Assembly (NCBI RefSeq): GCF_001263395.1 | Contig: NZ_CP011786.1 | Coordinates: forward strand, 1,550,001 to 1,614,000 | Source of the DNA: Bifidobacterium actinocoloniiforme DSM 22766 | GTDB taxonomy: Bacteria > Actinomycetota > Actinomycetes > Actinomycetales > Bifidobacteriaceae | DNA: 64,000 nucleotides | Reading direction: 5' to 3' | Shown: one piece after another, positions 49,537-60,058 of the stretch | Position numbering within the stretch: position 1 is the stretch's first letter | Layout: every line of letters starts with the position of its first letter | Program-made: the position numbers and the translations under genes | The notes under the pieces: generated by a model | Told to the model about the DNA's origin: nothing | Databases searched by the model: none | Seen by the model: only the letters and a program-made list of their open reading frames with translations

Positions 49537-50303
49537 GTGAAACCTCCTGGGGTGGCTGGGTTTGTATGGGATGCCCTGTCCTGACGGCGGGATTCCTCGG
49601 CCAGGGTGTATGCGGCGTCGGGCAGGGACGGGGGGATGAAGAGGCAGTCGCGACGACCGGTGAAATGGGACGGGTCCAGGGAGATCAGCTGGTCGGCGGT
49701 CAGGAAGCGCGCATATTCGTAAGCGGTGCCCTGGCAGACCGGGCTCTCATAGAGGTTGGCCCAGGGGGCGCCGTGCTGGATGGTGCCGATGACGATGCTG
49801 CCGCCGGGCTTGACCAGGCGGCGCATGGCCCGGTAGGCCGCTGCCGGATTGGGCAGGAACTCGAAGCAGGCCATCGAGAAGGCTGAGTCGAAGGAACCGG
49901 CGGACCAGTCGGGCAGTGGTGTGTGCTCCGCGGAAGCGTCGTATAGGTCGGACGGGGTGTCCGGCGCGCTGTTCGCTGGCGCGGCAGTTTCGTTTTCGGG
50001 GCTGGCCAGGCGGGTTATGTCTAGCAGCCGCAGGTCGGCGGACTGCTTGCGCTCAGCCAGTTTGCGGCGGGCTTGGTCGAGCATGTTCAGAGCGATGTCG
50101 ACTCCGCTCACCTTGCAACCGGCCTGGGCCAGCTTGCCGGTGAAGTTGCCGGTGCCGCATCCCACCTCCAGGATGGACTGGCCGGTCTTGGGCTCCAACA
50201 GTTCCAGCAGGGCGCGGGTCTGCACCTGGTCCGCCAGCGCCCCGGGCGCGGTATCCAGCCACTCGTCGTAATCCGCGTAAAAGTGGTTAAACACGTTAAT
50301 CAT
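49503..50303 (-). CDS. Class I SAM-dependent methyltransferase
   Basis: The 266-residue protein has a standard methyltransferase fold: SILEVGCGTGNFTGKLAQAG (motif I), VSGVDIALNMLDQARRKL and a post-motif III region LVKPGGSIVIGTI. A 40-residue Ala/Pro/Ser-rich insert sits near residue 100. The start ATG has GAAGGAG upstream. The substrate is unknown. Its stop lies inside the following YkoF-like gene, implying a functional pair. Confidence 0.85.
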   Translation of the reverse strand: MINVFNHFYADYDEWLDTAPGALADQVQTRALLELLEPKTGQSILEVGCGTGNFTGKLAQAGCKVSGVDIALNMLDQARRKLAERKQSADLRLLDITRLASPENETAAPANSAPDTPSDLYDASAEHTPLPDWSAGSFDSAFSMACFEFLPNPAAAYRAMRRLVKPGGSIVIGTIQHGAPWANLYESPVCQGTAYEYARFLTADQLISLDPSHFTGRRDCLFIPPSLPDAAYTLAEESRRQDRASHTNPATPGGFTCVRFVASAVN

Positions 50304-50402
50304 GCGCGCTCCTTCCGCCCTCGGCGGCCTGTCCCTTCAAGCCTATGCCCCGCCCTTGTCAGCAGGGCGGCGCGGGTTCGGGTGCGGGTTGGGGGAGAAC
50401 AC

Positions 50403-50408
50403 TAGAGT
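50403..50408 (+). promoter_or_regulatory. -10 element TAGAGT for leaderless HD-domain gene
   Basis: TAGAGT, 7 bases, then the ATG at 50416. Confidence 0.6.
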
Positions 50409-50415
50409 GGGGGGC

Positions 50416-51090
50416 ATGATTCCTTCTGTTGAGTGGGCCGAGGAGCTGCACCGTAGGGTAGCGCCCTCGCCGGCGGCTTATGAGCTGATCCATACGCATT
50501 GCGTGATTATCGCCGGGATTGGGAAAGAGCTGGCCCAGCGCGCCAACGCACGGTACCGGGCAGCGCAGGTGCGCGCGGCGTCCAACGCTTCGATGGACTC
50601 CGCCGTGCCCCAGCGGGAGCTCGACGCGGACCTGGTCTACCTGGGTGGGCTCTTGCACGACATCGGTGCCTACCGAATCCTCGCCTCGGACGGGGCTGAC
50701 GGCCGACCGCTGGCCTTCGATGACCGCTACATCCAGCACGGCATCGCAGGCTACGAGCTCCTGAAAGCCGAAGGCGTGGACGAGTCGATCGCGCAGTTCG
50801 CGCGCAACCATACGGGAGTAGGGCTCACGCGTCAGCAAGTGGAGGCCGAGCACCTGAACCTGCCGGTGGACGACTACGTGCCCCAGAGCCTGGAGCAGGA
50901 GCTGGTCATGTACGCGGACAACTACCACTCCAAGCATCAGCCGCCCATCTTCGTTTCCGAACCGACGGCCGCTAAGCGCACAGCCCGCTACGGCGAGGAG
51001 AACCTGTGCCGATGGAAGACCCTGGTCGCCAAGTACGGGGTGCCCGCCTTGGAGCCTCTGGCCCGCGAATACCGGATGGACATCGTCTAA
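50416..51090 (+). CDS. HD-domain phosphohydrolase-like protein
   Basis: The 224-residue protein has HD-superfamily ligands: YELIHTHCVIIAG (first His), LGGLLHDIGAY (His-Asp), QFARNHTG and LVMYADNYHSK (final Asp). HD proteins usually hydrolyse phosphate esters of nucleotides. The frame is open back to 50302, but the leaderless -10 element and the usual family N-terminus favour the ATG at 50416. It is divergent from the methyltransferase gene; the substrate is unknown. Confidence 0.85.
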   Translation: MIPSVEWAEELHRRVAPSPAAYELIHTHCVIIAGIGKELAQRANARYRAAQVRAASNASMDSAVPQRELDADLVYLGGLLHDIGAYRILASDGADGRPLAFDDRYIQHGIAGYELLKAEGVDESIAQFARNHTGVGLTRQQVEAEHLNLPVDDYVPQSLEQELVMYADNYHSKHQPPIFVSEPTAAKRTARYGEENLCRWKTLVAKYGVPALEPLAREYRMDIV

Positions 51091-51215: not shown

Positions 51216-52175
51216 TTATCGATTGAGTTTTTGCCGTGATGAGGCGCCTGGGTGGAAGGCGGCGTAGCGGCGGCTGAAGGAGCGCCGCATCCAGGGGTCC
51301 GGGGCGTAGGGGGGTTCGCGCGGATCGGCCTGGCTGGATTGCAGGGCGTCCAAGTAAGCCGCCATACCCTGGGGGCCGTAGGCGTAGGGGGCGGCGCACC
51401 ACAGTGGGTTGGCCTCCAAGATGATTGGCGGGCCGGACTGGGTGAAGGCCAGGTCGATCGCGCCCGAGGTCAAGCCCCCGGCGCTCGCCGCCGCCTGGGC
51501 TGCTTGGAGCGCAGCGGCCCGGCGGGCGGGGTCGAAGTGGGCGCCGTCGAAGACCGAGACGATGCGCCGTCCGCCTGCGGGGTCGTGCAGGCAGTAGCCC
51601 GAAGCCGCTATTGGGCGACCAGCGTCCAAGAGCACCCGCCACTCCTCGCTGATGTCTGGTATGTGGCTACTCAGCTGAATCAGGGAGTCCGGCGGCGCCG
51701 TGGCCAGGCTGGCTTGGAGTTCAGGCAGGCTGCGCTGGGCGGCGCGGAAGGCCAAGACCCGACCTTGGGCCAGCTGCGACCAGGGGCGATCGCCTAGGCC
51801 AGAGGGCAGGCTCCGCCAGCCCAGTATCCGCTTGGCGGGCGCGGCCACTATCCGCCGGCCCGCGAGTTCGGGGGCGACTTGGGCCAGCTCGGCCAGCCAG
51901 GTGGCTCGGGGGGAGGGCAGGCGCAGGGGCTCGCTCCCCCAGGCGGTCAGCCAAGCGTTACTGGCGATGAGCAGGGCTGGGGCTATCCAGAGCGCGTCGG
52001 CTTGGCTGAGGCCGTCCGGCGGTGCCAGTCCGTTTTGCGCCCGCAGTGACCAGGCGGCTCCACCTGCCTGATCCAGGGTTTGGGAAATAATTTCGGAAAT
52101 CCAATTTTCATTTGCTACTACTTGGCAGACTTTTGCCTTATTCGGTGGAAATTCAGTGGTCATATCGCTTAACAT
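51216..52175 (-). CDS. ATP-grasp domain protein (DUF4343/R2K-like)
   Basis: The 319-residue protein has a degenerate N-terminal half and a C-terminal ATP-grasp catalytic part: IQLSSHIPDISEEWRVLLDA, SGYCLHDPAGGRRIVSVF, and AIDLAFTQSGPPIILEANPL, where the Asp and the Glu-Ala-Asn are the expected metal ligands. Small stand-alone ATP-grasp proteins of this type often modify peptides or polymers. The ATG at 52175 follows AAGGTGAAGA; an ATG at 52163 is also possible. No substrate peptide is seen nearby. Confidence 0.65.
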   Translation of the reverse strand: MLSDMTTEFPPNKAKVCQVVANENWISEIISQTLDQAGGAAWSLRAQNGLAPPDGLSQADALWIAPALLIASNAWLTAWGSEPLRLPSPRATWLAELAQVAPELAGRRIVAAPAKRILGWRSLPSGLGDRPWSQLAQGRVLAFRAAQRSLPELQASLATAPPDSLIQLSSHIPDISEEWRVLLDAGRPIAASGYCLHDPAGGRRIVSVFDGAHFDPARRAAALQAAQAAASAGGLTSGAIDLAFTQSGPPIILEANPLWCAAPYAYGPQGMAAYLDALQSSQADPREPPYAPDPWMRRSFSRRYAAFHPGASSRQKLNR

Positions 52176-53048: not shown

Positions 53049-54026
53049 CTATTCCAGTGTGTAGGTACGGTCATAGGGACCCTCGGAGGGGTGACCCGAG
53101 CAGGCTACGATCACCGCGCAATCATGGCGGCGGGCCGTCTTTCTGAGCAGGGCGAGGATATCGGCAGCCTCGTCTTCGCTCAGGCCGTCCATCAGCTCCT
53201 GGGTCAAGAGCACGTCTGGCTCGCAGGAGATGGCCCGGGCCAGGGCGGCCCGCACATAATCCAGGCGGCTGAGCTCGCGCACCGGACGCTGCTCCAGGCG
53301 CTCGGGGAAGCTCATCTCCTCCAGCAGGTCGCGGGCCTGCGTGTCCTTGGGTTTCAGGAAGGTTCGGCCGGAGGCTTCCATGGCGTACGACAAGTTCTCA
53401 ACCGCGCTCATATCGGTGCGCAGGGCGTCGCGGGCGAAGATGACGCCCAGCTGGTGGCCCCGGTAGTCCCAGGCCTCAATCTGACGCAGGTCGGTGCCGC
53501 GGAAGAGCACCGTGCCCTCGCTGGGGGCCAGCAGACCCGAGATTACGCCCATCAGGGCGCCCAGGCGCTCGGGGCTTCCGGTCTGAACGCAGTGGGTGCG
53601 GCGTATGCGGAAGGACATATCCACGTCGTCCAGCAGGTAGGTGGTCGAGTCCTTGCCCCTGCCGCTCAGGCTGACGTGCCGCAGCTCCAGGACGGGGTAG
53701 CCGGAGGGCACCGGGATGTCGGTGTCATCCATGTCCGTGTCCATGCTGGCAAGCGGGTCCTCATCGTCCGAGGACCAATCCCCCTCCTCAACGGCTTCGC
53801 TTTCGATGACGACCTTGAACTCCGGCTCGGAGCCGTCTTCCTGCCCGTCGTCAGCCTCTTGGGAAGCCTCATCGCCTATGGCCGCGAAATCCTCTATGGG
53901 TTGAGCGGGCTCTGTCCGCCGCGTGTCCTCGGCGCGACGGGCGGTGCCCTCCTGAGGTGCCTCCGGCTTTTCCTGGCCTACGGTCTGGGCGTCCTGGCCC
54001 TCATCCGGTTTCTCGCTGCTGGTCAT
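53049..54026 (-). CDS. ABC-transporter-like ATPase subunit with degenerate motifs
   Basis: The 325-residue protein has an acidic, Glu/Asp-rich N-terminal 110 residues, then an ABC nucleotide-binding fold. VLELRHVSLSG and TVLFRGTDLRQIEAWDYRGH align with MacB/LolD-type ATPases. The catalytic motifs are altered. The Walker A position (residues 149-157) reads TGSPERLGA without the Lys-Ser. The signature reads LSRLDYVRAALARA instead of LSGGQxQR. Walker B reads VLLTQEL with Gln for Asp. The switch His region reads VACSGHPSE. The start ATG 54026 overlaps the permease stop (ATGA) with AAAGGAG upstream. Loss of ATPase activity is inferred. Confidence 0.85.
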   Translation of the reverse strand: MTSSEKPDEGQDAQTVGQEKPEAPQEGTARRAEDTRRTEPAQPIEDFAAIGDEASQEADDGQEDGSEPEFKVVIESEAVEEGDWSSDDEDPLASMDTDMDDTDIPVPSGYPVLELRHVSLSGRGKDSTTYLLDDVDMSFRIRRTHCVQTGSPERLGALMGVISGLLAPSEGTVLFRGTDLRQIEAWDYRGHQLGVIFARDALRTDMSAVENLSYAMEASGRTFLKPKDTQARDLLEEMSFPERLEQRPVRELSRLDYVRAALARAISCEPDVLLTQELMDGLSEDEAADILALLRKTARRHDCAVIVACSGHPSEGPYDRTYTLE

Positions 54027-55318
54027 GCCGTCTCCTTTGCGTCTGCTGCATCGGTCTGGGGCGCGCCTGGGGCCTGGCTTACGGCGATCGGCTGGTAGAG
54101 GCGCGAAGTGCGGAAGGTCCCTGCGTATACCCACGCGAGCAGGGCGATAATGAAGCAGATGGCCAGGCCGCTGCCGCACACCCGCCAGAGGGCGGCAGCG
54201 GGCATCTGCTGGATGCCGGGCAGGGTGATTGCTGAGCGCACCGCCGCTGGGCACAAAGCCGTGCCGGCGCCCAAGCCTATCAGCAGGCCAGGCAGGGTGA
54301 CGATCAGGGTCTCCAAGGCCATTTGCCAGCCTATTCGCGCCTTGGATACGCCGATTGTGATGGCTACGCCCAGTTCGTTGGCCCGGAACATGAGCCCGAA
54401 GATCAGCCAGACCAGGGCGAGGACGGCTCCGAAGACCAGGATGGCGATCAGGAGGGCGCGAATCTTGCCGGACCGGTCGTGCAGGGGCTGGACGCTGCGC
54501 TGGTAGGCCTCCAGGCTGGGCGAGGACACATCGTACTGCTTGGCCGACAAACCGGCCTTATGCAGGGTGTCGGTGAACCGCTTGAGGGCGTCCGGGTTTT
54601 GCAGCCTGAAGCCCACAACGAGATCGCGGCCCTTGTCTCCTGGCTGGCCGGCCTTGTCGAAGCCGTGCTGGGCGAAGGTCGCGTAAGCGGCGTACACCGC
54701 GTTCGCCGCCGGGCCCTTGGCCTGAGCGCCGGTGACCTCGTAGATGCCCGATACGCTCATGTCCACGGTCTTGCCCGCGTTCGCGGGGTCCGCTATCTTA
54801 ATGACGGACCCTGTCTTAAGCCGGTTGGCCTCTGCCAAGGGCTGCGAGACCAGGACGGCATCGCCCGCGGACTCGGAGTAGTCCAGATCCTTGCCCTGCA
54901 CCCGGTTGATCTTGCCATAAGGGCCCTTGGCCGCGACCGTGGAGTCCGACAGTCCGACCAGGTTCATCTCCCCCTGGCCGCCGACCGGCTTAATCCCCTG
55001 GAAACTGGCGGGCGCGGTCTCGTAGTAGTAAGCGCCGAACTGGATGCTGTTGGCCTGGAGGAGCTGGGCGTATTGGGAATACTGCTCCCAGGTCAGGGGT
55101 TTGGCCGTCTTCCCCTTGCCTTGGCCATCCGTCTTAGGCGTGATTACGGCATCCGTGGCTTGGGTGTCATAAATCGTGGTACGGGTGTCCTCGTCCGCCT
55201 GGAGCACGGTCAGGCCGACCACCGCTGAGGCGGTCACCGCAATGCAGACGATGAGGAACGTGGCATTGCGCGCCTTGTTCCGTGTGATTGCTCTCCATGC
55301 GTTCTTCAGGACGAACAT
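54023..55318 (-). CDS. FtsX/MacB-like ABC permease
   Basis: The 431-residue protein starts VLKNAWRAITRNKARNATFL, typical of MacB-type permeases, with one N-terminal helix near residues 20-40. A 250-residue extracytoplasmic domain follows, then three C-terminal helices from about residue 285. The loop ELGVAITIGVSKARIGWQMA is the cytoplasmic coupling loop that meets the ATPase. It precedes and overlaps the degenerate ATPase gene. Mechanotransmission across the envelope, rather than transport, is typical of this fold. Confidence 0.9.
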   Translation of the reverse strand: MFVLKNAWRAITRNKARNATFLIVCIAVTASAVVGLTVLQADEDTRTTIYDTQATDAVITPKTDGQGKGKTAKPLTWEQYSQYAQLLQANSIQFGAYYYETAPASFQGIKPVGGQGEMNLVGLSDSTVAAKGPYGKINRVQGKDLDYSESAGDAVLVSQPLAEANRLKTGSVIKIADPANAGKTVDMSVSGIYEVTGAQAKGPAANAVYAAYATFAQHGFDKAGQPGDKGRDLVVGFRLQNPDALKRFTDTLHKAGLSAKQYDVSSPSLEAYQRSVQPLHDRSGKIRALLIAILVFGAVLALVWLIFGLMFRANELGVAITIGVSKARIGWQMALETLIVTLPGLLIGLGAGTALCPAAVRSAITLPGIQQMPAAALWRVCGSGLAICFIIALLAWVYAGTFRTSRLYQPIAVSQAPGAPQTDAADAKETA

Positions 55319-58237: not shown

Positions 58238-59884
58238 TCAGTCGCTCGACTTGGAGCGTTCGACCGGCCGGGGTCGGGGGTGGGCCAGCCGGGCGAACAG
58301 GGCGACTGTGCCCAAGCCCGCAGCCGCCATCAGCGTCAGCCCCGCCACCCGGTGGATTGGCGTGGCGCCGGCTGCCGGCAGGGGCGTATGTATGCCCCAA
58401 TCGCCATACACCAGGGTGGGTGCGTCTACCGCGTGGGTGACGTCGAAAACGCTGGAATCGGCGCTGTTGCGCCAGTTGATGAAGATGTAATCCTCGCAGG
58501 CGCCGTTTACGCAGTCGCTGTCTCTTTTGGGAGTCTTATAGATTTTATCCGCGTCGGTGGTGTCGGCGACGCTGGCGCCGCGATTTACGCTGACCTGCTT
58601 GCTGTTGCTGCGGGTACCGTCACTCCAGGTGCAGGCAACGCTCGGGTCCTGCGCGCATTGGAAGGTGACGGTGGACGACTGCAGGCGCACCTGATACTCG
58701 CCTTCGTAAATCAGGTTCCCGTTCGTATCCACCAGGTCCCAGCGGAAGATGAACTGTTTGGCGCCGTTGGGGATGATGAACCGGTGCGTTTTCGTGTTGA
58801 ATTCCACCTCGGTCCCGTTTCGCGCGGGTTCGCCGCCCGACATCGTGAACTCCCGGGAATTGCTGATGGTGAAGCGGTTGTGAGCGGGGCTCGCCGGAGG
58901 ATTGGTTTGGTAGAGGTATTGATAGGACGACAGTTGGCTGAAGCTATCGACGGTCTTGAACAAATCCTCGATGGCGATGGTTTGTCTGCCGTCGACCAGC
59001 GTAATGGGCACATCTTTCTGCGGCGTCTGCCAGGGAACCGCGGAATCCGCATTATCGCCGGAATCATCGCCGGGGTGCGGTGGCCCGTGGCTGATAGTAA
59101 AGGCGGACGGTGGCAGTTTGAGATCCGTGATCATGTTCCAACGGAAAGCCCCGGCCCCGATTCTGACCTGGGCATCTGGCAGCTCGTGCAAATCCAATGC
59201 GGTTAAAGAATTGGCCGAGAAAGCGGATTCTCCGATTGCTTGCAGTCTGCTGGGGGACTCAAAGTCCAGCTGCTTCATATGGCAGCCGCCGAAGGCCTCG
59301 TAGCCGATCGTTTGGACGGAGCTGGGGATGGTGATCGCGCCGACGCTGGTGTAGAGAAAAGCCTTATCTGCGATGGACGTCACCGTATCGGGGATGATGA
59401 TTCTGGACAGCTCGGTGCCGTTCCCGCTGTTCTCCGGTTGGTATTGCATCGCTCCATCGCCGATGCTGGTGACGGTGTAGGTGGTGTCATTCTGGGTAAT
59501 CTGGCTCGGAATCTTCACGCAGTCTCCATCGTGGAACCATGTCCGGGTTGCAGCCATTCTGGCGGTCCGAGCAGAGGGGTCAGCCGACCAGAACCAGTCG
59601 CTCTGGGTCCCCACCGTCACCGTGCAGGTGCTGTTCCTCGTCTGCACGCGGGGTGGGTTTGACTGTCCGGAGGGGCTGGGCCCGCGGTTCCCGGAAGAGC
59701 CGGCCGGCGCGCCGTTTGTGGGGAAGCCGTCCGCGTTTTCGGCAGAGCTGCGAAGTTGGCCCAAGCCAAGGGCGACCATGACGGCGATCATGGTTATGAG
59801 GACGGCCGCCGCCACGCCTAGGCGCGCAAGGTGGGAGGATTGACGGAGGACAGCCCGTCCACTTTTGCCTCTCCTGAATTTCAT
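58238..59884 (-). CDS. Cell-surface protein with BspA-type leucine-rich repeats and LPAAG anchor
   Basis: The 548-residue protein has a basic N-terminus and a hydrophobic signal-anchor near residues 22-42. A Ser/Pro-rich linker follows, then about four BspA-type LRR_5 repeats (SIGDGAMQYQ, SIADKAFLYTSV, TIGYEAFGGC, AIGESAFSANSL). A later Ig-like or InlB-like part has four Cys. The C-terminus is LPAAGATP, a hydrophobic segment and an Arg-rich tail, the layout of a sortase signal with Ala instead of Thr. GGGGGAG precedes the ATG at 59884. A role in adhesion is likely; the anchor is inferred. Confidence 0.8.
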   Translation of the reverse strand: MKFRRGKSGRAVLRQSSHLARLGVAAAVLITMIAVMVALGLGQLRSSAENADGFPTNGAPAGSSGNRGPSPSGQSNPPRVQTRNSTCTVTVGTQSDWFWSADPSARTARMAATRTWFHDGDCVKIPSQITQNDTTYTVTSIGDGAMQYQPENSGNGTELSRIIIPDTVTSIADKAFLYTSVGAITIPSSVQTIGYEAFGGCHMKQLDFESPSRLQAIGESAFSANSLTALDLHELPDAQVRIGAGAFRWNMITDLKLPPSAFTISHGPPHPGDDSGDNADSAVPWQTPQKDVPITLVDGRQTIAIEDLFKTVDSFSQLSSYQYLYQTNPPASPAHNRFTISNSREFTMSGGEPARNGTEVEFNTKTHRFIIPNGAKQFIFRWDLVDTNGNLIYEGEYQVRLQSSTVTFQCAQDPSVACTWSDGTRSNSKQVSVNRGASVADTTDADKIYKTPKRDSDCVNGACEDYIFINWRNSADSSVFDVTHAVDAPTLVYGDWGIHTPLPAAGATPIHRVAGLTLMAAAGLGTVALFARLAHPRPRPVERSKSSD

Positions 59885-60058
59885 GCAACTCCCCCATGCC
59901 GGCCGATTACCCAATCGGCCGATATCAAGCTTCAACATCCGCCGTCGCGGGCGGACACCATCCCTGAGGTGCACGCCCTACGCTCCCCCCTAACTAATAG
60001 TATCCACTGGGCAGGGTTACGCTATGAAGGGATGCCGTTCCTTGCGCAAACCTGACAT

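Follow-up and report, generated by a model that had tools for sequence, protein, structure and literature searches.

A maintained, lineage-wide ABC pseudo-ATPase paired with a MacB/FtsX-type permease in Bifidobacteriaceae

What can an FtsX-type permease do when the only ABC protein encoded beside it has lost the residues of its ATP site? The question is raised by two overlapping genes in a 64,000-nucleotide stretch of the genome of Bifidobacterium actinocoloniiforme DSM 22766 (NZ_CP011786.1, positions 1,550,001 to 1,614,000), called the window here. The features of the two genes are as follows, in window coordinates.

54023..55318, minus strand: FtsX/MacB-type permease, 431 aa, with TM1, an extracellular domain and TM2-4 (Pfam, AF2, Foldseek)
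54347..54385, minus strand: conserved cytoplasmic coupling-helix region between TM2 and TM3 of the permease, RANELGVAITIGV
54023..54026, minus strand: ATGA stop/start overlap of the permease and pseudo-ATPase genes (sequence)
53049..54026, minus strand: pseudo-ATPase, 325 aa, an ABC fold without the ATP-site residues
53700..54026, minus strand: acidic N-terminal extension, aa 1-109, predicted to be disordered (32% Asp/Glu; pLDDT about 40-55)
53799..53819, minus strand: FKVVIES, aa 70-76, the local form of the tail motif F-x-[VI]-x-[FYI]-[DE]-x
53052..53699, minus strand: ABC domain, aa 110-325 (pLDDT >90 over most of the domain; Foldseek)
53556..53582, minus strand: degenerate Walker A, TGSPERLGA
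53349..53462, minus strand: most conserved stretch, aa 189-226, at and after the Q-loop, usually the permease-docking face (column entropies)
53250..53273, minus strand: degenerate signature motif, LSRLDYVR
53178..53210, minus strand: degenerate Walker B, LLTQELMDGLS, with Asp replaced by Gln and Glu kept
53097..53099, minus strand: switch position, S310, with Ser replacing His

Both frames are intact, and the ATGA coupling of the permease gene to the ATPase-like gene, noted in an earlier sequence-only reading of this DNA, was confirmed at 54023-54026 with both frames open. The codon use of the pseudo-ATPase gene, which had been called normal, gave a GC3 of 0.83, compared with 0.76-0.87 for the neighboring genes. 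The permease matched Pfam FtsX (E=1.8e-8), and its AF2 model, of moderate confidence (pLDDT 77), placed helices at residues 15-46, 267-310, 327-363, and 375-404. In a Foldseek search, this model was closest to Spr0695 (5xu1), followed by MacB, and LolC/E were also found. Thus, Pfam, AF2, and Foldseek all gave the FtsX fold of type VII systems, with TM1, the extracellular domain, and TM2-4. The pseudo-ATPase, which was modeled as a separate chain, matched Pfam ABC_tran (E=4e-11), with the match beginning only at profile position 27, past Walker A. Its ABC domain retrieved LolD, HrtA, YbbA, and MacB at TM-scores of about 0.82-0.87, normalized by target. The partner expected of a type VII permease, a protein with the ABC nucleotide-binding fold, is therefore present according to Pfam, the predicted structure, and Foldseek.

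The nearest known systems are the Gram-positive MacB-like type VII systems, namely, Spr0694-0695 of S. pneumoniae and YknYZ and YtrEF of B. subtilis. As in the window, the ATPase and a four-TM FtsX permease with an extracellular domain are separate proteins, and a phmmer search with the pseudo-ATPase placed YtrE first. However, the ATPases of these systems have intact motifs (as seen in YtrE), whereas the window pair has lost all ATP-site motifs but one Glu. In MacB proper, which partners with MacA and TolC, the ABC domain and the permease are fused; the window pair is not of this kind, as its ABC protein and permease are encoded by separate genes. FtsEX also combines an FtsX-fold permease with an ABC subunit, and it is described as relaying a signal rather than pumping a substrate (PMC11627006); in contrast to the protein studied here, FtsE uses ATP. 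The window genome encodes a separate FtsE/FtsX-type pair, named from gene pairing and size, at C1:939628-941684, and its ATPase falls elsewhere in the tree, so that the window pair is not orthologous to FtsE/FtsX.

We compared the ATP-site motifs of the window protein with the canonical ones. TGSPERLGA stands in place of the Walker A GPSGTGKTT; the loop is of the same length, but its chemistry is gone, with the Gly, Lys, and Thr all missing. The signature reads LSRLDYVR instead of LSGGEQQR, and Walker B reads LLTQELMDGLS instead of IIADEPTGNLD, in which the Asp has become Q276 while the catalytic Glu position is still Glu (E277). The Q-loop Gln is replaced by Ala. In separate phmmer alignments, made against YtrE and MlaF-type ATPases of solved structure, the alignment at the signature and Walker B was the same. 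Every loss listed in the sequence-only reading (the Walker A Lys-Ser/Thr, LSGGQ, the Walker B Asp, and the switch His) was thus borne out by motif alignment and phmmer, and the window protein has none of these elements, which are needed for ATP hydrolysis. Judged from its sequence, it is close to certain to be unable to work as a normal ABC ATPase, and the sequence likewise argues against an ATP-driven conformational cycle of the pair.

The same losses were examined in 128 orthologous pairs from 128 Bifidobacteriaceae genomes of three genera (27 of the window's genus, 2 of a second, and 99 of a third). The core losses were common to all of them: none of the 128 orthologs had the Walker A Lys, the signature Gly-Gly, or an in-place switch His, all of which were present in nine of nine canonical relatives. 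Orthologs with an intact Walker A, which the earlier reading had named as evidence against it, were looked for, and 0/128 have one. An alignment-free search for G-x4-GK[ST] gave the same division (0/128 against 9/9), and together with the phmmer alignments it rules out motif misalignment. An ATPase working by a non-canonical site, to which the retained fold and Glu position could point, is highly improbable, because no ortholog retains either half of the composite site. The Walker A Lys was most often replaced by Arg or His, which are still basic. The Walker B Asp was kept in 121 of 126 readable orthologs; its loss is confined to the window clade, whose five members all have Gln, and the catalytic Glu was usually kept outside this clade. 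Most orthologs of the second and third genera still have the Q-loop Gln, whereas most of those in the window's genus do not. These differences indicate that the decay was stepwise, and the window clade is its most advanced stage. The Asp and the usual Glu outside the window clade hint at some remaining role of the pocket.

In an ATPase tree built without the motif columns, all 36 degenerate sequences fell in one clade (100/100) on a long stem, and the sister of this clade was an intact paralogous pair, thereby indicating that the loss was ancestral. The intact sister pair (L069, L070, L077, L029, L076, and L030) shares the order of permease then ATPase with the degenerate pair and is nearest to it in the tree. 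However, it has all motifs intact, a permease of about 550 aa, and no acidic tail motif. Some genomes hold both the degenerate and the intact sister pair, and the window genome holds only the degenerate one. A third FtsX/ABC pair with intact motifs (L071 and L073), seen in a few genomes of the window's genus, lies outside both the degenerate clade and its sister.

All genomes of the window's genus (27/27) had the degenerate pair. For the second and third genera, the permease was found in 9/9 and about 100 genomes, and the ATPase partner was read in 2 and 99, respectively. Among the named matches to the ATPase were B. xylocopae, Bombiscardovia coagulans, B. asteroides, B. indicum, B. psychraerophilum, B. 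thermophilum, and B. tissieri; B. longum, B. breve, B. bifidum, and B. adolescentis appear to belong to the third genus. The third-genus genomes listed without a match were of 1.5-1.8 Mb. No member of the family was found outside Bifidobacteriaceae at E <= 1e-25 among 297 genomes sampled evenly across the order.

The permease also differs from its canonical relatives. The coupling-helix pattern was present in 112/128 permeases. A C-terminal R-x-EP tail, which 11/11 canonical permeases have and which the intact sister pair shares, is missing in the window permease and almost all of its orthologs, and the Ser/Gly-rich TM3-TM4 loop of the sister permease was likewise lost. Because the coupling-helix region is kept but the R-x-EP tail is gone, the permease and the pseudo-ATPase appear to have changed together.

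A decaying pseudogene would also lose catalytic motifs, and the window clade has additionally lost both the Q-loop Gln and the Walker B Asp. Two of the 128 copies look truncated or frameshifted (L199 and L229, which could not be read to the C-terminal motifs in one frame). However, the frames of the other 126 were open through all motifs, and the pair was found throughout the window's genus. The ATGA overlap was kept in 28/28 orthologs of the first set and, by a strict test, in 90 of 100 further loci, which makes 118/128 overall. In a set of the B. asteroides type, the ABC domain had a median dN/dS of 0.064, compared with 0.128 in the permease and 0.34 in the tail. The window clade gave 0.22, 0.28, and 0.35 in that order, at a dS of about 1.1, where synonymous changes are close to saturation. 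The purifying selection that the earlier reading had proposed to look for is therefore strong, at least on the ABC domain of that subclade, and its view that the gene is not a pseudogene stands on the intact frames, the shared losses, and a dN/dS far below 1. The last two results rule out a pseudogene or a sequencing error as the source of the losses, and we regard decay as the least credible of the readings considered here, with almost no probability left to it.

The most conserved stretch of the ABC domain lies at and after the Q-loop. By column entropies, most former ATP-contact columns were among the more variable ones, with the second Walker A Thr ranking 204, the signature Gly 193, and the switch position 191 of 214 in variability. 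In contrast, G194, N211, M216, S219, R221, and L224, which follow the Q-loop, were near-invariant. By analogy with other ABC systems, the face formed by aa 189-226 may dock on the permease. The scaffold role suggested in the sequence-only reading fits this conservation pattern. Alternatively, the old pocket could still bind a ligand, either a nucleotide that is not hydrolyzed or some other metabolite, and signal through the permease. The Walker B Asp and Glu kept in most orthologs and the basic residue that mostly replaces the Walker A Lys would suit such a sensor, but in the window protein neither the GxGK[ST] core of the P-loop (its Lys and Thr included) nor the Walker B Asp remains, and most pocket columns are free to vary. 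We therefore consider a sensor rather unlikely.

The acidic extension that had been read ahead of the ABC domain is present at the composition given above, and its length is 109 aa rather than 110. Across the orthologs, the tail varied from 58 to 397 residues. The motif F-x-[VI]-x-[FYI]-[DE]-[DE/Q/S/W] was found in 111/128 orthologs, compared with a mean of 0.5 and a maximum of 4 matches in shuffled tails, a test in which the 128 orthologs are related and not independent. Most of the orthologs without the motif carried near variants (FKVVIEH, FSFTFDD, and FTFEDE). None of nine canonical relatives, whose tails are short, had the motif. This distribution is consistent with a recruiting or sensing role of the tail motif.

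The pairing with a second ATPase that the earlier reading had offered as an alternative was examined in the window genome. In such a heteromer, the pseudo-ATPase would join a canonical ATPase, such as that of the sister pair, and one competent site would drive the permease. Heterodimeric ABC exporters offer an analogy; in these exporters and in RbsA and NupO of B. subtilis (PMC11466899), one ABC domain lacks the Walker A Lys and signature residues. Moreover, the canonical sister pair co-occurs with the degenerate pair in many genomes (L069, L070, and L077 were read). However, those proteins keep one competent site, whereas the locus here has a single ABC gene, with no second, competent subunit. 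Because this only ABC subunit is degenerate, a homodimer would have no working site. Each composite site of a mixed dimer would in turn need the Walker A or the signature of the pseudo subunit, both of which are lost. About half of the other genomes, like the window genome, gave no second match that would fit the sister pair. In addition, the window genome has five FtsX-type loci, and each of the four besides the window pair has a canonical ATPase next to its permease or fused to it; family searches of this genome recognized no orphan FtsX-type ATPase, and hence no spare one for the window permease. Pairing with a second ATPase is thus disfavored in the window genome and unlikely as a general explanation, and on the sequence evidence it could still occur in species that keep the intact sister pair.

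Published accounts of related genes were also considered. They include the FtsX-type iron genes sifBCD (PMC5449479). In B. breve, the orphan ATPases Bbr_1490 and Bbr_1890 are essential and are described as not near ABC transporter genes (PMC5514069), and no link to them is claimed. In the titles, abstracts, and passages searched, subscription journals aside, there was no description of an ABC pseudo-ATPase or a degenerate Walker A paired with FtsX.

The surroundings of the pair were variable. An HD-domain (HDIG-like) gene at window positions 50302-51090 has counterparts near the pair in 18/22 neighborhoods of three genera; its order and orientation differ between them, so a functional linkage is only a lead. 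An R2K-type ATP-grasp protein (51216-52175) is near the pair in only part of the window's genus, and a predicted surface protein with BspA-type leucine-rich repeats (58238-59974) lies upstream. The B. psychraerophilum group (L065, L066, and L079) departs from the other groups in its neighbors, as the pair there adjoins an RlmA-like rRNA methyltransferase, an iron-dependent repressor, and an Nramp metal transporter.

Altogether, an ATP-independent scaffold or relay is the mechanism best supported by the sequence evidence, and the pair probably forms an ATP-independent, ABC-derived complex of type VII in which the pseudo-ATPase is a structural and docking subunit. The ancestor of Bifidobacterium sensu lato would have given up the use of ATP and retained its type VII (MacB/FtsX-like) complex. 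The permease would be the membrane core, displaying the MacB-like extracellular domain, and the pseudo-ATPase would sit on its cytoplasmic side as a fixed structural subunit. The disordered acidic tail may recruit or sense a cytoplasmic partner through the motif F-x-[VI]-x-[FYI]-[DE]-[DE]. The physical complex, which would turn over no ATP, would then act as a scaffold or transmembrane signal relay, with no pumping.

Degenerate sites in ABC proteins are familiar as half of a machine with two sites. In this system, the sole ABC subunit appears dead in every species read, with one origin and under strong purifying selection. The gene pair offers a natural way to learn what an ABC fold can do together with an FtsX permease when no ATP is hydrolyzed, and its apparent presence in familiar gut species would make it testable in genetically tractable strains. 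The finding also calls for caution in annotation, as pipelines count such genes as ABC ATPases and the window protein still passes Pfam ABC_tran. A maintained, lineage-wide pseudo-ATPase thus accompanies a MacB/FtsX-type permease in this family. More tentatively, the envelopes of Bifidobacterium may near-universally carry a lineage of ABC-type complexes that has been without ATP from its origin and serves as a passive or a force- or ligand-driven relay, recruiting its partner by the tail motif.
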